Shown here: piece after piece, positions 3,194 to 25,391 of the stretch
Numbering within the stretch: position 1 is the stretch's first letter
How the letters are laid out: every line of letters starts with the position of its first letter
Assembly: GCA_016929255.1 (NCBI GenBank)
Contig: JAFGJH010000047.1
Coordinates: 1-42,429, forward strand
Source: Candidatus Woesearchaeota archaeon
GTDB taxonomy: Archaea > Nanobdellota > Nanobdellia > Woesearchaeales > UBA11576
Length of the DNA stretch: 42,429 nucleotides
Direction: 5' to 3'
Notes under the pieces: generated by a model
The model's input: only the letters and a program-made list of their open reading frames with translations
What the model was told of the DNA's origin: nothing
The model's database searches: none
Translations under genes and position numbers: made by a program

Positions 3194-4489
3194 TTATATC
3201 CTCGCAGGGTTCTCTCTTTTCTCAAGTCTTCGTCTGGCGTATCTTGTGAGCCTGTGGCTCTGGAATATTGCAGGCACACTGCTGAACCAGTGGTGTCTGA
3301 GGAAACTCAGGTTTGACAGTCCGCTCTCTGGCATCTCCTCGACATCCTGTCTTATCTGGAGATAGTCTCTCAGGCTGTCTTTGGTCGGCCCGACCCCGCC
3401 CGAGTAGATGCAGTCCAACACAGATTTCCTTGCCTCAGCAGCGTTTTCATACCTTCTGTCAGGGTCTGTTTCCAGAAGTCTGCAGGCGATCTCTGACAAT
3501 CTTTCATCCACGCCCTTTATGATCTCATGGGGAGGCACCAGCTTTTTCTCGAACATCTCACGGGTGCCGTGGTATACTGCCATCTCGTTGCTTTCCTCGA
3601 GGAAAGGGTCGTTGGGCCTCAGCCCTGTGAGCATCTCGTATAGTACGACTCCGACAGAATAGAGGTCTGTCCTCTTGTCTACTTTCTTTCGCGGGTCTGT
3701 GATTTCGGGTGACATGTACGGTATCTTTCCTATGACCCTCTGCCCCTCGATGCCTTCAAGATCAGAGGTGGGCACTGCTACGCCGAAGTCGCCTATCTTG
3801 ACAGAGCCTTCGTCGAGCTTTATCAGCACATTTCCTGGAGAGATATCCCTGTGCGCGACCCCTCGCTGTTTCCTGTTCTTCAGCTCTTTTCCGGTCTCGA
3901 ACTCGAAGTTGTGCGCATATGCCAGGCCGTTTAGAATCTGGAACAGTATGAATCCTGTTATCGGATCAGGTATCCTCCTTATATCTTCTCTCAGCAGGCT
4001 TTTCGGTGCGCCGTCGGCGTGCATTCTGTGGATCCACATCAGGCCGTTGAGGTCTGTGCCTTTGATGTACTCCATCATGACGAAGTAGCTGTTGCTCTGG
4101 CTGTGGTGGTGCCATCCCAGGAAGGGGACTATGTTGTCATGGTCGAGCTGGGCTATCAGTTTCGCCTCTTTTATCAGCCTCTCCTGCAGTTCAGGGATCT
4201 CGAAGAGCTGCCTGACGAACTTCAGTGCAGCATACTTCGGGACATCATCTTCGTGGCCTGGCCCGGCGAGGTAGATGCATTTAGCTTTCCACACCTCTCC
4301 CATGCCTCCTTCGCCGAGCAGATCCTCAAGTTTGAACACTATGTCTCCGGAGGTTATCTCGTTCGGCAGTGCTTCGCGTCTGCTTTCGGGATGCGTCACG
4401 GGCAGGACAAAGGGCTTTCCGTCGAGTCCAATGCCTAGGAGGGTTTTTGTGTATACTCTCCTTGCCGCCTGGTCAGGTTTATCTCTCAT
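3194..4489 (-). CDS. Hanks-type Ser/Thr protein kinase, soluble
   Basis: Eukaryotic-like protein kinase of 431 aa resembling bacterial PknB-type kinases. Visible elements are the glycine loop GEGGMGEVWKAK (about 59-70), the ATP-anchoring Lys in AALKFV (about 87-91), the catalytic loop HRDISPGNVLI (about 207-217), metal-binding DFG in KIGDFGVAV and the activation-segment MSPE. No transmembrane helix or extracellular sensor is seen, so it is probably cytoplasmic. The start has no Shine-Dalgarno sequence, but a TATA-like AATTAAAC about 28 nt upstream suggests a leaderless transcript. The target is unknown. It lies tail to tail with trm5, 17 nt apart. Confidence 0.93.
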   Translation of the reverse strand: MRDKPDQAARRVYTKTLLGIGLDGKPFVLPVTHPESRREALPNEITSGDIVFKLEDLLGEGGMGEVWKAKCIYLAGPGHEDDVPKYAALKFVRQLFEIPELQERLIKEAKLIAQLDHDNIVPFLGWHHHSQSNSYFVMMEYIKGTDLNGLMWIHRMHADGAPKSLLREDIRRIPDPITGFILFQILNGLAYAHNFEFETGKELKNRKQRGVAHRDISPGNVLIKLDEGSVKIGDFGVAVPTSDLEGIEGQRVIGKIPYMSPEITDPRKKVDKRTDLYSVGVVLYEMLTGLRPNDPFLEESNEMAVYHGTREMFEKKLVPPHEIIKGVDERLSEIACRLLETDPDRRYENAAEARKSVLDCIYSGGVGPTKDSLRDYLQIRQDVEEMPESGLSNLSFLRHHWFSSVPAIFQSHRLTRYARRRLEKRENPARI

Positions 4490-4575
4490 GGTGCAGAGTT
4501 TTTCAATCAGGGTTTAATTGGTTTTCGTTGTCTCTTTTTTTTTCGGACGAAAGAGAAAGATGACACGCATCAGGG

Positions 4576-5307
4576 TCACTTGAGCGGCTTGAAAGAATAC
4601 GTCGGTTCGCTTAGGACCTGGCTTACTATTCTGTTCTGCTTGTTCCTGAGTGTGGCGACATCCCCTTTGTCGTTCCACACAGCTTTTGGTCTCCCCCAGT
4701 ATAGTTTTGTGTTTGTGTTCCTGCCCTTTCCTGTGAATATCTTTACCGGGCCGTATGCTGTAAAGCCGGCCGGGAAATTGAATGTGTGCTTCCTTCCCTT
4801 GTCGTGCAGCTTGAATCCTGTAAGCTCTACGCCATATCCCGTCACCTCTACCCACTCTGAGTTGAGGTTTTTCTTTCCGTTGCCTTTTGCCTTGAACTGG
4901 ACGCTTGTGATCCTGGCCTGGCCTTCAGGTATGTCATAGATTGAGGGTGTTTCCTTTGTCTTCTTTTTTGAGTCTTCCCTCACGATATTCCTTATCTCAG
5001 TAAGCGCTGAGTCCCTTGTCTTGAAGACTGTCGAGACTGGCTGTATCTGCATCGGTGCCTGTTCCGGCTTTCTTTCGAGCTCGCTTATCCGCTCATTGGT
5101 CTGGTTGATGCTGTTCTGAAGCTCAGAAATAATCTTTGTCTGTGACTCAAAAGCTGTTTTTATGCTTTCTGTGGAAAAAGAAGCGAAATTAGTCTTTAGA
5201 TTCTCTATTTTGCCGTTTATATCCCTCACATCATACTTTATGTTGTTAAATGACGTGCAAAGAAGGTCATTAAGCTTCTTGAACTCGTATTCTGGGTTGG
5301 CTGCCAT
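4576..5307 (-). CDS. Coiled-coil protein with C-terminal lamin-tail domain (LTD)
   Basis: Protein of 243 aa. Residues 1-90 form a probable coiled coil (heptad-like FKKLNDLL, IENLKTNFASF, ISELQNSINQTNERISELER). After a linker of about 35 residues comes a domain with the hallmarks of the lamin-tail Ig fold: VQFKAKGNGKKNLNSEWVEV, LTGFKLHDKGRKHTFNFP, VKIFTGKGRNTNTKLYWG and VWNDKGDVATL. There is no signal peptide, whereas many prokaryotic LTD proteins are secreted, so this one is probably intracellular. A TATA box at 5330-5338 suggests a leaderless start. Function is unknown; LTDs elsewhere bind DNA, proteins or cell-surface components. Confidence 0.85.
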   Translation of the reverse strand: MAANPEYEFKKLNDLLCTSFNNIKYDVRDINGKIENLKTNFASFSTESIKTAFESQTKIISELQNSINQTNERISELERKPEQAPMQIQPVSTVFKTRDSALTEIRNIVREDSKKKTKETPSIYDIPEGQARITSVQFKAKGNGKKNLNSEWVEVTGYGVELTGFKLHDKGRKHTFNFPAGFTAYGPVKIFTGKGRNTNTKLYWGRPKAVWNDKGDVATLRNKQNRIVSQVLSEPTYSFKPLK

Positions 5308-10854: not shown

Positions 10855-10889
10855 TTTGTTGGCGCGATGAAAGATAAAAGAGTGTGAAA

Positions 10890-12056
10890 ATGCCGGACAA
10901 GATGTCAGACCTGAAGAAGAATGTTGAGGCTATACTTTTCGCAGCAGGCAGGTCAGTCTTGATGAGGGAGTTTCAGTCGCTTCTCCACATAAGGGAGGAA
11001 GGGCTGATAAAGGAGACGATAACAGAGATCAAGGCGGATTACGAGGCCAGCAACAGCCCGATGATGATACTTTCTGAAGGGGATGGCTGGAAGCTGACCG
11101 TGAGGGAGAAGTATCTTCCTGTTGTCCAGAGGATAAATCCCCACACTGAGCTGAGCAAGACCATTCTAGAGACATTGTCAGTGATTGCCTGGAAACACCC
11201 TGTGCTCCAGTCTGATGTTATAAAGGTGAGGACTAACAAGGCTTATGATCACATAGCTGAGCTGGAAAGGCTTGGTTTTGTATCCAAAGAAAGGCATGGA
11301 AGGAGCTTTGTATTGGGGGTGACCCAGAAGTTCTTGGATTATTTTGATCTTCCTGACGACAAGGCAATAAAGGAAATGTTCAAGGGATTTAAGGAGATAG
11401 AGGTTGCTGTCAAGAAGAAAGCCGGTGAGTTTGAGAAGGCTAAAGCAGCCCAGGAATCTGGAGGGATGGAAGCTGCGCCGGCAGAGGCGGAAGAGGCAGG
11501 GCGAAAGGAGTCAGGGAAAGAAGATGGAGGCTCTGAATTGGAGCCCTATATAGATGTCCCTCCCGAGAGGCCGAAGCCCAAGAGCGCCGCAGAGCTCGAG
11601 GTATACGAACTACCTCCGGAAGAGATTTCTAAAGATGCAGAAGAGCCTGTGAAAGTGAATGCAAAGGAGGAGAAGACCGGCCCCGTGAAGAAAAATGAGC
11701 TCAAAGAGACCCCTGAAGAGAAGGCAAAGAGGCTGGCGAGAGAGCTTCTTGGCGAGGACATGCCTAAGGAGCATCCCGTAGAGGAAGAGAACGGAAGGAA
11801 GCTCCATCCGAAACTTGAGGAGTTCATAGCAGGGTCAGTCGAGCGTCTCGCTCCGAAGAGAACAAAGCAGAAGAGAGATGTTGTCGTTGAAAAAAGAGAT
11901 GAAGAGGCTGATGAAGAAGCAGGACAGCCTGAAGAGCCAGAACAAGAAGAGGCTTCGGAAGATGATGTGTCTAAGAAAAAACCTGCAGAGGAATTTCCAG
12001 GACAGTTTTCTGATGAAGGCGAGCCTGAAAAAGAGGATTCAGACAAGGAGCAATAA
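10890..12056 (+). CDS. scpB: ScpB-like chromosome segregation protein with long charged tail
   Basis: The first ~165 residues match ScpB, the winged-helix partner of the SMC-ScpA condensin: LKKNVEAILFAAGRSVLMREF, LETLSVIAWKHPVLQSDVIKVR, YDHIAELERLGFVSKERHGRSFVLGVTQKFLDYF. Bacterial ScpB is about 190-220 aa; this one is 388 aa because of a ~220-residue Glu/Lys-rich, probably disordered tail ending in acidic repeats. A GTG at 10884 is in frame, but the ATG at 10890 is preferred. ScpA and SMC are not in the window. The tail could bind basic partners or DNA-bound proteins. Confidence 0.85.
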   Translation: MPDKMSDLKKNVEAILFAAGRSVLMREFQSLLHIREEGLIKETITEIKADYEASNSPMMILSEGDGWKLTVREKYLPVVQRINPHTELSKTILETLSVIAWKHPVLQSDVIKVRTNKAYDHIAELERLGFVSKERHGRSFVLGVTQKFLDYFDLPDDKAIKEMFKGFKEIEVAVKKKAGEFEKAKAAQESGGMEAAPAEAEEAGRKESGKEDGGSELEPYIDVPPERPKPKSAAELEVYELPPEEISKDAEEPVKVNAKEEKTGPVKKNELKETPEEKAKRLARELLGEDMPKEHPVEEENGRKLHPKLEEFIAGSVERLAPKRTKQKRDVVVEKRDEEADEEAGQPEEPEQEEASEDDVSKKKPAEEFPGQFSDEGEPEKEDSDKEQ

Positions 12057-12395: not shown

Positions 12396-14852
12396 ATGGC
12401 AGAAAAGATTGCAGAGAAGACACCTGAATCAGGGTCAGGGGTTGAGAAGATAATCCCTACTGTTGTAGAGGAAGAGATCAAGAGGTCTTATCTAGATTAT
12501 TCTATGTCTGTCATAGTGGGAAGGGCGCTGCCTGATGTGCGTGACGGCTTCAAGCCGGTACACAGGCGCGTGCTTTTTGCCATGAATGACCTGGGCATGT
12601 TCTCGAACAAGCCCTTCAAGAAGTCCGCGAGGATAGTCGGCGAGGTTATCGGTAAGTACCACCCGCATGGTGATGTTGCTGTTTATGACACCCTTGTCAG
12701 GATGGCGCAGGACTTCTCTCTGCGTTACCCTTTGATTCAGGGACAGGGAAATTTCGGTTCTGTCGACGGTGACTCACCCGCAGCGATGAGGTATACCGAG
12801 GCGAGGCTGTCAAGGATATCTGAGGAGATACTTGAGGACATAAAGAAGGACACTGTGGGTTTCCAGCCGAACTTCGACGGCGAGCTGCAGGAGCCGGTTG
12901 TCCTGCCTTGTAAGATACCTAACCTGCTCGTCAATGGCAGTTCAGGGATAGCTGTAGGCATGGCCACCAACATCCCTCCGCACAACATGGGTGAGGTGAT
13001 TGACGGTGCCGTGCGCCTTATCGACAGGCCTGACGCGACCCCCGACCAGCTCATGGAGCAGATAAAGGGACCTGATTTTCCGACAGGTGGCATAGTTTCA
13101 GGAGTCTCTGGAATTGTCGAGGCATACAACACGGGCAGGGGCAAGGTGAAGATAAGGGCAAAGACAGGTTTCGAGACTGTCAGGAACAGGCACAGCATAA
13201 TAGTCTCGGAGATACCTTATCAGGTGAATAAGTCGCTTCTTATCGAGCAGATAGCTGACCTTGTGAGAGACAAGCACATCACAGGGATACATGACATACG
13301 CGACGAGTCTGACAAGGACGGCATGCGTATAGTGATAGAGTTGAAGAGTGAAGCTACCGCTGAGGTTGTCCTGAACCAGCTATTCAAGCACACCAGGCTG
13401 GAGTCTACATTCGGTATCATATTCCTGGGTCTCGTGAACAATGAGCCGCGCCTCCTGAACATAAAGGAGATGCTGCAGTGCTTTATCGAGCACAGGCAGG
13501 TTGTCGTCAGGAGGAGGACTGATTTCGATCTCAAGAAGGCAGAGGAGAGGGCCCACATCCTCGAGGGGCTGATAATAGCACTCGATGACATTGATAACAT
13601 AGTGCAGAAGATAAAAAGGTCAAAGGATGTGGAGACTGCAAAAGCTGTCCTGGTGTCTGATTATTCCCTGAGCGAGGTTCAGGCCAAGGCAATCCTCGAC
13701 ATGAGGCTGCAGAAGCTCGCTTCTCTCGAGCAGGTGAAGATAAAGGATGAGCACAGGTCATTGATAGAGCTCATCGCCGAGCTTAAGTCTATACTTTCAT
13801 CTGAGGAGAGGATACTTGGCATAATAAAGAGCGAGCTCCTCGATATGAAGGAGAAGTACGCCGATGAGAGGAGGACAGAGATAAGCGCTGATGTGGGCGA
13901 AGACCTTTCTGTTGAGGACCTTATAGAAGAGGAGGACATGGTGGTCACTGTGACCCATGCAGGCTACATCAAGCGGCTCCAGGTCGACGCTTACAGGAGT
14001 CAGGGAAGAGGAGGTAAAGGTGTGATTGGGGCATCGACAAAGGAGGAGGATTTTGTCGAGCACCTGTTTGTCGCTTCGACCCACTCGAGTGTGCTGTTCT
14101 TCACGAACCAGGGTCAGGTCTATTGGGTGAAGGTTTATGATCTGCCTCTTGCGTCCAGGCAGGCGAAAGGCAAGGCGATGGTCAACCTTGTGAGTCTGAA
14201 GGAAGGTGAGAAGATTAAGGCGTTCGTTCCCGTGAGGGAATTTGATGATCAGCACTACCTGATAATGTGCACGAAGCAGGGCACTGTCAAGAAGACTTCT
14301 CTAGAGTCTTTCTCCAGGCCGAGGAAAGGGGGCATAAGAGGTATTACTATAAATGAGGGTGACGAGCTGGTCGATGTGGTGATGACTGACGGCTCTATGA
14401 ATGTCATAATAGCCACCAGCAACGGCATGGCGATAAGGTTCTCAGAGAATGATGTCAGGCCGATGGGAAGGTCTGCCGCGGGTGTCAGGGGTGTGAGCCT
14501 CAAGCAGGGTGATTCAGTTATAGGGATGGTTATCGCAGAGGATGACAAGACCCTTCTGACCGTCACCGAGAACGGTTACGGGAAGAGGACTGAAGTCTCT
14601 GAGTACAGGTTCATCAGGCGCGGAGGCGTGGGAGTCAAGAACATACTATGTTCAGACAGGAACGGCAAGGCTGTGTCTATACGCTCGGTGACCGATGATG
14701 ATGAGGTTATGTTCATGTCCCAGAACGGCATAGTGATAAGGACTCCCGTCAAGGAGATTTCTGTGATAGGGCGCGCGACTCAGGGGGTACGTCTCATGAA
14801 GCTTGAGGATGGTGACAGGCTCGTTGACGCCGCAAAGATAATCAATGAGTGA
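12396..14852 (+). CDS. gyrA: DNA gyrase subunit A
   Basis: Breakage-reunion subunit of DNA gyrase, which introduces negative supercoils using ATP bound by GyrB. The 818 aa match bacterial GyrA. The N-terminal domain has [28 protein letters not shown] and the active-site tyrosine Y133 in [10 protein letters not shown]. The C-terminal beta-pinwheel carries the GyrA-box QGRGGKG (about 538-544), which marks gyrase rather than topoisomerase IV. Gyrase in archaea is generally regarded as acquired from bacteria. No gyrB is adjacent, unlike the common gyrBA order, so the partner must be elsewhere. Confidence 0.96.
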
Positions 14853-23093: not shown

Positions 23094-23182
23094 TTCAGCC
23101 GCAACATATGCACTATTGTGTCCGGCAATAACACATTTTGCCTCACTTTTTCATGCTTTTTTGAAATAACCAAGGTGAAAAT

Positions 23183-23416: not shown

Positions 23417-23957
23417 TGATTTTATGGCTTTTACAGCTTTTCCACCCATCATACATATCATATGCTTTACTTTAGCCTTTACTTTAGCCTTTTTTACCAT
23501 TCCATATGGCTTTTTGCAGGCTTCCACAGCATCTAGCTCTTACCTAAAAAGGGCTGGAAGGCTGGAAATTAACTTTATGCTTTTCTGAGCCGTATTTTCG
23601 GTTTTTTGAGCATTCTGGATCTGTCACTTTTAGGTATTTTTGGACTTTTTAGGTTGTTTTTTTGAAACTATCAAAAATGCCCCGATATTCGGGGTCATGT
23701 TTTTGGGCTTTTTTCTAACCTTTTAGGATTTTTGAACCCTCACTTCAGCTCATTTTTGGATGTGATTTGACCCCTACCGAACCATATTTAACTACAAAAT
23801 ATAAATCAAAAAATAATGATTACAAAAAAATCTTTCAAAAACAATTTTTACGATATATATCTTTTGGTACTAAACAAGGCATCTGCAACTGCTGACTATG
23901 TTTTCAGCAGATCAGCCAGAACCGTTGCAGAAGAACAATTTTTTCTTCTCCGGACCA

Positions 23958-23977
23958 GGTTCGCTCCAGGTTCGGAC
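23958..23977 (+). repeat. 20-bp direct repeat, copy 1
   Basis: GGTTCGCTCCAGGTTCGGAC, identical to the copy 64 bp downstream. It contains two GGTTCG cores spaced 11 bp apart. Confidence 0.85.
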
Positions 23978-24021
23978 TCTCACGATTCGGCCAAATTCGG
24001 GCGTTTTAGGCTGTATAAATG

Positions 24022-24041
24022 GGTTCGCTCCAGGTTCGGAC
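24022..24041 (+). repeat. 20-bp direct repeat, copy 2
   Basis: Exact second copy of the 20-mer at 23958, preceded by TATA-like GTATAAAT at 24013-24020. Confidence 0.85.
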
Positions 24042-24142
24042 ACAATCCGTACCGAACTCATGTTTTGGGCGTTGTTTTTTATTCTCGTCGAGAAAACAGG
24101 CCACTGGATGTGCTGTCCAGGTTCGTACCCGTCGCGAATTCA

Positions 24143-24167
24143 GTTCAGGTTCAGTACGTACTGAACC
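24143..24167. repeat. Palindromic operator-like site, copy 1
   Basis: Contains the perfect 20-bp palindrome GGTTCAGTACGTACTGAACC (24148-24167), preceded by an extra GTTCAG half-site at 24143. Copy 2 lies 75 bp downstream. Confidence 0.85.
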
Positions 24168-24217
24168 AAAATATGCCTTTTTGCGATTTTTAAAAGCATT
24201 TTAAAGGGTTTTCTTGA

Positions 24218-24252
24218 GTTCAGGTTCAGTACGTACTGAACACGAACTGAAC
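24218..24252. repeat. Palindromic operator-like site, copy 2
   Basis: Perfect 18-bp palindrome (24224-24241) flanked by an extra GTTCAG on the left (24218) and an extra CTGAAC on the right (24247, 11 bp from the previous CTGAAC). The first 24 bp equal 24143-24166. It ends 7 bp before the TATA box of the coiled-coil/wHTH gene, a position suited to blocking or recruiting TBP/TFB. Confidence 0.85.
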
Positions 24253-24258
24253 AGCAAG

Positions 24259-24267
24259 ATTTAAATA
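24259..24267 (+). promoter_or_regulatory. TATA box for the coiled-coil/wHTH gene
   Basis: ATTTAAATA, with transcription predicted near 24290. This rules out the in-frame ATG at 24273 and supports the ATG at 24306 preceded by GGTGA. Confidence 0.6.
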
Positions 24268-24305
24268 TTTCAATGCATTTCATATCAAGATTGAAGGTGA
24301 TTTTG

Positions 24306-25391
24306 ATGGTTTTTCAGATCATAGGTGGTAAAAGGAAGAAAGAGCTAGAACGCAAATTTACCACTTTCTCAGAGCAACTAGCTCAGGCATTTGCGCAGAT
24401 AAAGACAGATATTGGTGAGATCAATAACAAGGTTGATTCCAACCAGAAAGAGATGGAAAAGCTGGGTCAGTGGATAGACTATTTGAATAGGTCTAACCAG
24501 AGGCTTTCTGAGCATAATCTGAAACTATTGCAAAAATACGAGAAAATATCAGAAAACCACCAAAAATTACATAGTTCCCATAGTGAGCTGAGCTCTAACC
24601 ATTCCAGGACTGCTCAGATGGCTGAAAACCTTGAAAACAGGCATCAGGAGCTTTCTAAAGCTCTTTCAACACATAAGGATGCGCTGAAAAGTGAGATCCA
24701 TAACAGCTTTAGAGAGCATAAGGAGGCCTCAGAACAGGAGCTAAAACGCCTTAAGACCTGGGTAGATTACCTTTCAGGGCATATAGAGCGCCAGAAGGCT
24801 AAGGAGGACGCTCTGAAGCAAGATATCACAGGGATACAGAGGAATTGGCTTGAATCTTATTCGAAGCTCAGAGAGATTGTAAATAGCCTTAAAACCGAAA
24901 ATGATGAGCTTAAGTCAGATCTGGTTTCTGTAAGGGATAATCTCTATAATTCCCAGAAAGAGCTTGAAAATGCCAAAAATCTGGCAAGATCTCATATTCT
25001 TGAGGCAAAAAGTGAGCTTTCACAGCAGATTCATGCTCTTAAGGCAGCCTCTCATCAGGTCCAGGTACAGCCCCAGCCCATACTGCAGCAGATCCAGCCG
25101 GTTGCCCAGCAGGTAAGTCCTGCCCCTAATAGCTTCCAGAGGCACATAATGTCGAGGGTCCTGCCTAACAGGAAAGGATATGTGCTGAAGTTTATACTTG
25201 ATCTCGTAGGTGAGAACAAGTACTCAACAAAGGAGCTGGAGGAGATTGTTGTCAGTGAGAAGCAGCTCTGCGGAAGGACTTCCTTCTACGCCTATCTTAA
25301 GGAGCTTAAGCTGAAGGGCAGGATAAACTATGCTGAGCTCGACGAGAGGCAGATCCTGGTGAGCACTGATCCGCAGCAGCGACTCCAGTGA
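24306..25391 (+). CDS. Coiled-coil protein with C-terminal winged-helix domain, 361 aa
   Basis: A basic N-terminus (GGKRKKELERKF) leads into about 230 residues of coiled coil containing two similar units, LGQWIDYLNRSNQRL and LKTWVDYLSGHIERQ. A Gln/Pro linker follows, then a C-terminal wHTH-like domain (KGYVLKFILDLVGENKYSTK, LKELKLKGRINYAELDERQI). The start at 24306 is set by GGTGA five bases upstream. Two large palindromes lie just upstream of its promoter, so it may bind them and regulate itself, or use them as a chromosome-organising site. No signal peptide; no known family assigned. Confidence 0.75.
   Translation: MVFQIIGGKRKKELERKFTTFSEQLAQAFAQIKTDIGEINNKVDSNQKEMEKLGQWIDYLNRSNQRLSEHNLKLLQKYEKISENHQKLHSSHSELSSNHSRTAQMAENLENRHQELSKALSTHKDALKSEIHNSFREHKEASEQELKRLKTWVDYLSGHIERQKAKEDALKQDITGIQRNWLESYSKLREIVNSLKTENDELKSDLVSVRDNLYNSQKELENAKNLARSHILEAKSELSQQIHALKAASHQVQVQPQPILQQIQPVAQQVSPAPNSFQRHIMSRVLPNRKGYVLKFILDLVGENKYSTKELEEIVVSEKQLCGRTSFYAYLKELKLKGRINYAELDERQILVSTDPQQRLQ

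Follow-up and report, generated by a model that had tools for sequence, protein, structure and literature searches.

An archaeal coiled-coil winged-helix protein and the phased DNA array at its gene: a possible centromere-like chromosome anchor, or a self-regulating switch only

Introduction

Proteins that bind repeated DNA beside their own genes are described from partition systems. In type III partition the tubulin-like TubZ is encoded next to the DNA-binding protein TubR. TubR is a winged-helix protein with direct-repeat blocks upstream of its operon, and also serves as a repressor (PMC5016525); TubY unites three elements, an HTH, a coiled coil and an amphipathic helix that binds membranes (PMC7762940). 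In type II systems the repeats of parC again lie upstream of the operon, and the ribbon-helix-helix protein ParR works with an actin-like partner, ParM (PMC5016525); ParR proteins form specificity families, each binding only the parC of its own family (PMC9426499). Among archaea, AspA of plasmid pNOB8 is a winged-helix protein encoded in an operon with parB and parA; a single 23-bp palindrome ahead of the aspA gene is its nucleation site, from which it spreads on the DNA (PMC5120986). Sulfolobus SegB, whose gene follows the ParA-type gene segA, binds palindromes upstream of the segAB cassette (PMC5120986, PMC11381335).

Chromosome segregation and anchoring in the tiny DPANN archaea are hardly covered in the literature that we searched. 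Here we analyze a 42,429-nucleotide stretch of a Woesearchaeota genome, the window, in which an array of half-sites precedes the gene of a protein, predicted to be rod-shaped and DNA-binding, that we call CcwH; the titles and abstract openings searched, a body that takes in few subscription papers or preprints, hold no published description of this family. The CcwH family pairs a defined protein with a defined DNA site and, in its three helix classes and three kinds of word, offers a specificity code made by nature. The locus has the look of a centromere-like chromosome anchor, but could be a self-regulating switch only. Should the centromere reading be true, a segregation site would be coded in and around the gene of the protein that binds it.

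The Array in the Window

Reading of the sequence and a repeat search place the array, an unstranded lattice of GTTC-type half-sites of class I with the core GTNCGNAC, at 23957-24252, and its half-sites are kept in the related genomes G001 and G003. The initial annotation had drawn the region from 23775; the array proper bears out the part from about 23957 to 24252, but the part from 23775 to 23957 holds one isolated half-site, at 23778. Fourteen GTTC or GAAC half-sites fall within 318 bp (23941-24258). Over 2000 dinucleotide shuffles the mean is 4.4 (sd 1.9) and the highest count 12, and the next-densest 318-bp stretch of the window contains nine. Two identical plus-strand copies of an exact 20-bp direct repeat, GGTTCGCTCCAGGTTCGGAC, with two half-sites 11 bp apart, lie at 23958-23977 and 24022-24041; the repeat search adds a third copy, 75% identical, at 24109-24128, and the half-site unit CAGGTTCGTAC (24118-24128, plus strand) was located among the CARGTTCGNAC places of the window's own genome. 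The first of two palindromes is perfect over 20 bp (GGTTCAGTACGTACTGAACC, 24148-24167) and, with extra half-sites, extends over 24139-24167. The second is perfect over 18 bp (GTTCAGTACGTACTGAAC, 24224-24241) and has extra GTTC/GAAC half-sites on both sides; its region, 24214-24252, sits directly upstream of a TATA-like box. The twin palindromes with their flanking half-sites at 24148 and 24224, and the exact repeat at 23958 and 24022, are thus present just as initially annotated.

Nor is the 18-bp palindrome scattered: allowing up to three mismatches, it occurs in its own genome (1,207,989 bases on 60 contigs, 93% complete) at only these two array places, and its reversed control at none. For the shorter pattern CARGTTCGNAC, three of four places in that genome are inside the array (control, two places), while three of four in G001 (control, five) and two of seven in G003 (control, 17) are at the array on the contig of the orthologous gene. 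The suggestion that the literal palindrome stands upstream of all orthologs fails, however. G001 has GGTTCAGGTTCGTACTGAACT for the first palindrome and a second one identical to that of the window, so that the exact form is kept once; in G003 the first has become GTTCAAGTTCAGTTCGAACTTG, the second is also altered, and the exact form is absent. This comparison rules out the exact palindrome as the conserved unit: what is kept across relatives is the lattice of half-sites, with exact palindromes kept in part. An Rfam scan and scans for bacterial promoters and terminators returned no match in the array.

The CcwH Gene and Protein

The CcwH gene (24306-25391, plus strand) encodes 361 residues, with a long coiled coil and a C-terminal winged helix. 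Its most likely start is 24306, because the N-terminus is then common to the G001 ortholog and a Shine-Dalgarno-like GAAGGTGA lies at 24293-24300; an in-frame ATG further upstream, at 24273, would give 372 residues. By reading of the sequence, a putative TATA-like box, TTTAAATA, occupies 24260-24267 on the plus strand; it is identical in G001 and changed in G003. A cluster of ribosomal protein and RNA polymerase genes lies upstream and leuS downstream, and by eye fragments of the same neighbors flank the orthologs of G001, G005 and G009. Farther away in the window, a protein kinase-domain gene (3194-5307, minus strand) adjoins the gene of a lamin-tail-domain protein.

The initial annotation described the product as a long coiled coil with a wHTH, and the AlphaFold2 model agrees, with two long helices and a winged helix. 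The helices, residues 7-117 and 124-246, form a predicted coiled coil of about 240 residues (24324-25043, plus strand), to which coiled-coil-type weak matches also point. The winged helix, residues 276-353 (25131-25364, plus strand), was also modeled alone, and has pLDDT block means of 84-89 over residues 291-350, lower at both ends. Within it, the class I alignment and the class table place the recognition-helix segment CGRTSFYAYLKEL at 25269-25307 (plus strand), where C, G, R, T, F, Y and E are invariant in 28 aligned class I homologs. Fold comparison finds a winged helix of a common kind, like the MecI, PadR and SqrR types (Z about 9). The Foldseek match to TubR (3m9a, E 0.048) is weak and many other winged helices are equally good, and the likewise weak match to AspA bound to DNA (5k5q, E 0.12) is no evidence of kinship. 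CcwH has no match above the curated cut-offs in Pfam and NCBIfam, just sub-threshold matches of coiled-coil type, and weak matches only in PHROGs, which has no cut-off; the sequence of the winged helix had no match in the PDB. Counted from the first ATG over all classed loci, F, W or Y occurs among residues 2-7 in 21 of 26 class I and 36 of 38 class III proteins, but in seven of 28 of class II, which by this measure is without an aromatic N-terminus.

Half-Site Words Track the Recognition Helix

Arrays accompany the gene in many families, in keeping with the initial picture of a cooperative-looking protein-binding platform tied to the downstream gene, and the word of the half-site tracks the class of the recognition helix. 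Our class table comprises 102 loci from 99 genomes, of which G127, G148 and G167 were dropped for want of a recognizable helix; weaker matches were left out, and both the class expressions and the array threshold of four per 200 bp were fixed after the data had been seen. Class I helices (CGR..F[YF][ADSG]Y) go with GTNCG arrays at 24 of 26 loci, the other two having none; class II (C[SA][KR][AT].FYRY) with GTCTCA at 27 of 28, the remaining one having GTNCG; and class III (CS[KR]S.FYR[LIM]) with GTCCCA/ATTCCC at 33 of 39, the rest comprising three with GTCTCA, one with GTNCG and two with none. All six loci with other helices lack an array. Helix class and word therefore agree in 84 of 93 classed loci; for the 89 that have an array, 10,000 permutations gave a mean agreement of 30 and a maximum of 49, and control hexamers reached the array threshold in one of 594 cases. 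Five of the mismatches carry another class's word and four have no array, the latter including G009 and G007 of the window's own family.

Among the classed loci that were added once the words were already known, 45 of 50 agree (class II 20/20, class III 25/30; no class I among them). The pattern can also be seen inside a single genome: of two paralogs in G017, the class II gene (L017) has GTCTCA seven times, and the class III gene (L173) has AGTCCC six times. In a phylogeny built from 99 winged helices, class I and class III come out as one clade apiece (supports 97 and 99), the class I clade enclosing three unclassed rows or weak arrays, and the word changes 14 times, versus 43.9 in shuffles. 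Because each of these classes is one clade, the match of helix to word rests on few deep events. Inside class III the word varies among GTCCCA, ATTCCC and GTCTCA while the helix class is unchanged.

Placing and Helical Phase of the Arrays

Most homologs examined have a dense array at their own gene, whether upstream, inside the linker-coding region or just past the stop codon. The idea that arrays are always upstream does not hold outside the window's family: a first reading of ortholog DNA showed GTTC arrays upstream in that family, and other lineages use other words, in the linker-coding part or after the stop. Most other class I lineages, for example, have one array in the linker-coding DNA that leads up to the winged-helix codons and another immediately past the stop. 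The densest array of class I (n=24) is in coding DNA at 11 loci, upstream at seven and downstream at six, so that its position is not tied to the promoter; in class II it is upstream at 20 of 27 loci, and in class III at 13 of the 18 that pass.

Across 29 named loci, 83 of 92 GT.CG.AC cores fall between -500 and +300 of the gene, a zone with 14.2% of the bases, compared with 21 of 287 occurrences of six control words of like make-up; the cores are spaced by 11/12 and 22/23 bp, and two named loci hold none. Paired words were tallied by hand across 237 genomes, and are mostly at CcwH genome-wide, a further point in favor of a platform tied to the gene. The GTCTCA pair GTCTCANNNNNGTCTCA has 83 places in 36 genomes (control 20), of which 76, in 30 genomes, are within about 0.5 kb of a CcwH match (in one case, from G013, the match is weak and covers just the coiled coil); seven are elsewhere. 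The GTNCG pair GTNCGNACNNNGTNCGNAC is absent from the array of the window. It occurs at 17 places, spread over 14 genomes, and 13 of these (10 genomes) are within 0.5 kb of a CcwH match; its reversed control occurs at 13 places, over 12 genomes: its total is no commoner than chance, and only its placing is special.

The 11-bp spacing noted initially was right, and it is general. Same-strand spacings peak at 11/12, 22/23 and 33/34 bp in class I (85, 50, 38, 34, 16 and 16 pairs), at 11, 22 and 32/33 bp in class II (64, 38, 20 and 23 pairs), and at 11, 22 and 33 bp in class III (23, 27 and 15 pairs). In essence, three different words share one lattice, as proteins would need in order to bind cooperatively along a single DNA face.

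Distribution of CcwH Relatives

A search with the single protein found matches in 29 of 59 near genomes, its own included, and an alignment search in 137 of the 237 genomes of the order, a count that takes in weak, short and coiled-coil-only matches; among good genomes, 92 of 163 match. Since no CcwH match was found in the other 71 of those 163, CcwH is not universally needed. By title, the 29 named loci comprise 24 Woesearchaeota, one Nanoarchaeota, one DPANN, two entered as 'archaeon' and one Aminicenantes bacterium. The last (L057, entered under Candidatus Aminicenantes bacterium) shares its match with contig C54 of G052, a genome of the archaeal order, and is probably a mislabeled or mis-binned MAG. 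Of 279 genomes drawn from across the phylum, 163 match a class III alignment; beyond the order, among the matches listed, mostly the N-terminal part is covered. A scan of viral contigs confirmed no relative.

Another order of the same class contributes 11 loci, in 11 genomes, whose homologs have the same N-terminus and a different winged helix. Repeats like TGTTCAAACAGC are found in the linker-coding DNA of eight of the 11, in seven of these also before the gene, and repeats like CGTTCATGAACG at two loci, with a trace in a third. At L275 and L276 the linker-coding DNA has CGTTCATGAACG-like palindromes, and these homologs have a helix of the [L]GISIVTVRRH type; to judge from these sequences, CGTTCATGAACG would be a further word for a further helix type. 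At L270, L272 and L274, repeated copies of ACAGACAGACAG lie about 0.5-0.8 kb downstream of the gene end.

A Second Motif and Proteins X and Y

A second motif, CTCACTT, is found round CcwH at 2.03 per kb in class I and 1.79 per kb in class III, densities that control words, at about 0.1, do not approach, and at 0.08 per kb in class II (controls 0.11); the cluster loci are L033-L061 and L270-L280. Counting families that have a majority strand, from nine class I and 16 class III families with sites, upstream sites are mostly on the plus strand in eight of eight class I and 14 of 15 class III families, and so point towards the gene, and downstream sites are mostly on the minus strand in eight of eight and seven of seven. 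The window obeys this convergent rule weakly, with plus-strand sites at 23142-23148 and 23739-23745 (-1164 and -567 relative to the gene), and the inverse, AAGTGAG, on the minus strand at 24689-24695 and 25010-25016 (+383 and +704), inside the CcwH gene. In the other-order homologs all 31 CTCACTT sites are on the minus strand, in or past the last part of the gene; some of them, as we read the sequence, coincide with Lys-Ser-Glu codons that are conserved, and to that extent coding constraint is involved. We considered CTCACTT as the main CcwH target and rejected it: class II has arrays but hardly any CTCACTT, and the helix is followed by the half-site word, not by CTCACTT.

CTCACTTTT totals 216 copies in 15 whole genomes, versus 219 for its reversed control. 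Of ten genomes listed in full, G019, G022, G046, G052, G160 and G177 have at least three copies at CcwH, and G008, G011, G048 and G120 are without a cluster of at least three there. In G019, for instance, five of 17 copies lie within 435 bp at CcwH, and in G046 copies occur inside both coding genes neighboring it. In G120, G022 and G052 a CTCACTTTT cluster surrounds the gene of protein X, a small HTH protein of about 166 residues with AGITRQTMYDY, found in 22 of 59 near genomes; X genes with such a cluster are at L092:5243-5758 (minus strand), L093:6905-7405 (plus) and L094:5586-6173 (plus). X was considered as a candidate reader of CTCACTT; it was not found in the window's genome (G000), G046, G019 or G025. 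CTCACTT is only moderately enriched over 22 X loci, of which seven without a detected X motif yielded no number. In the window's family, extended stretches of about 5.5 kb at X (L283-L285) hold one to three CTCACTT.

Protein Y, a coiled-coil winged-helix protein with no Pfam match of note, is found in 54 of 59 near genomes and in 38 of 38 good ones, for example at L096:5862-6395 (minus strand), L122:927-1469 (plus) and, in the window's own genome, G000:C46:2207-2686 (minus). It adjoins several class III CcwH genes, often near X, and X, CcwH and Y are neighbors in G033 and G040. Y is a second candidate reader of CTCACTT, which is present at most of 25 Y loci, two holding none, but many of these loci adjoin CcwH or X; the Y locus of the window's genome (L281) has no CTCACTT.

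Proposed Function and Its Alternatives

Sequence comparison makes it very probable that CcwH binds its phased array. CcwH dimers, joined through the long coiled coil, would set their C-terminal winged helices on half-sites, and half-sites every 11 bp would align many dimers on one DNA face for cooperative loading, with one large nucleoprotein node per chromosome, at the CcwH gene, as the outcome. The coiled coil could act as a spacer and the short aromatic N-terminus possibly as a membrane or partner anchor; dimers, cooperativity and membrane contact are weaker propositions than binding. Taking the array as the cognate CcwH region, our preferred function for the node, with an even chance of being right, is a centromere-like chromosome tether or segregation site, which is the most likely outcome of such loading. 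Array copies beside the TATA-like box would also let CcwH repress its own gene, as plasmid centromere-binding proteins do. More tentative, and in our judgment rather less probable, is a motor-less chromosomal centromere of DPANN archaea in which a membrane-tethered coiled-coil CcwH belongs to the same machine as CTCACTT, X and Y; if true, site and binding protein would travel and change specificity together, with the array even in coding sequence. The ParA-like signature KGGxGK[ST] occurs in no ORF in 445,460 bases of 36 loci, window included, nor does the tubulin-like signature GGTG[ST]G in those loci, and these signature scans thus give no sign of a classical three-part partition system; a Pfam search of 28 window proteins, covering the window up to 31.5 kb, found no actin-like family.

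The alternative closest at hand is pure autoregulation, in which CcwH is a transcription factor, the array its multi-site operator, and segregation plays no part. The second palindrome of the window does end just ahead of the TATA-like box, and the upstream position of the densest array at 20 of 27 class II and 13 of 18 class III loci is that of a plain operator. Yet in 17 of 24 class I loci the densest array is in coding DNA or past the stop, where it would be of no use as a simple promoter operator; paired sites are almost only at CcwH itself, so that a regulator would need another function; and a coiled coil of 240 residues would be unusual for a transcription factor. That the array shifts its place from lineage to lineage and has few targets elsewhere argues for more than autoregulation; that no motor was found, and that some genomes are without the gene, argues against it; on balance we consider autoregulation alone unlikely, though a serious contender. 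A by-product of repetitive linker codons, or repeat slippage without function, would fit the repetitive linker peptide of class I and other-order homologs, but these words are also present outside coding DNA, ahead of the start or past the stop, and track helix class, which leaves this explanation scarcely credible.

The array could instead control replication, with CcwH as initiator or origin regulator. Iterons are phased repeats, which the array resembles, and origin boxes can be polar and convergent, like the CTCACTT sites that flank the gene. In archaeal origins of the Orc1/Cdc6 type the boxes adjoin orc1/cdc6. G075 has a lesser orc1/cdc6-like match (165.7 bits, below cut-off) 13 kb from one of its two CcwH copies, and G004 has a second orc1/cdc6 match, above cut-off, 63 kb from CcwH. 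In eight cases with both on one contig, however, the distance from CcwH to the best orc1/cdc6 match is 96 to 401 kb (G025 96, G223 107, G073 115, G004 126, G022 131, G019 327, G113 353 and G120 401 kb), and an origin of replication is disfavored, a replication-control role being improbable overall. A chromosome-organizing site, for SMC/condensin loading or as a domain anchor in place of a segregation centromere, would suit the convergent polar CTCACTT sites, which in G046 reach inside the neighboring coding genes, and the ScpB gene 12 kb away in the window (an ScpB-like gene, PF04079, at 10884-12056, followed by that of DNA gyrase subunit A at 12396-14852, about 10-13 kb upstream of the array); we give this possibility little weight.

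Comparison with Known Systems

RacA of Bacillus has a DNA-binding domain and a coiled coil, binds multiple chromosomal sites and achieves polar anchoring without a motor of its own. CcwH is like RacA in having a predicted DNA-binding domain and coiled coil and no motor found; unlike CcwH, RacA is bacterial and its sites are spread near the origin. The CcwH system resembles SegAB in being on an archaeal chromosome, but has no ParA-type signature beside it. With AspA-ParBA it has in common an archaeal winged-helix protein and, in the window, a palindromic site upstream of the gene, but CcwH has a phased array of many sites and no ParA-like signature in 36 loci.

The likeness to TubR-tubC lies in a predicted winged helix and repeat blocks beside the gene. 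CcwH differs in being chromosomal, with no tubulin-like signature nearby, in itself having a long N-terminal coiled coil, and in that arrays are also inside coding sequence; TubY offers a parallel, since one protein there unites HTH, coiled coil and contact with the membrane. CcwH is unlike ParR in fold, which is predicted to be two long helices and a C-terminal winged helix, not ribbon-helix-helix, but like ParR-parC it has its repeats at the gene, and the match of helix class to word resembles the specificity families of ParR. The likeness to TubR-tubC, ParR-parC and AspA comes down to a DNA-binding protein whose site, repeated or palindromic, adjoins the gene that encodes it.
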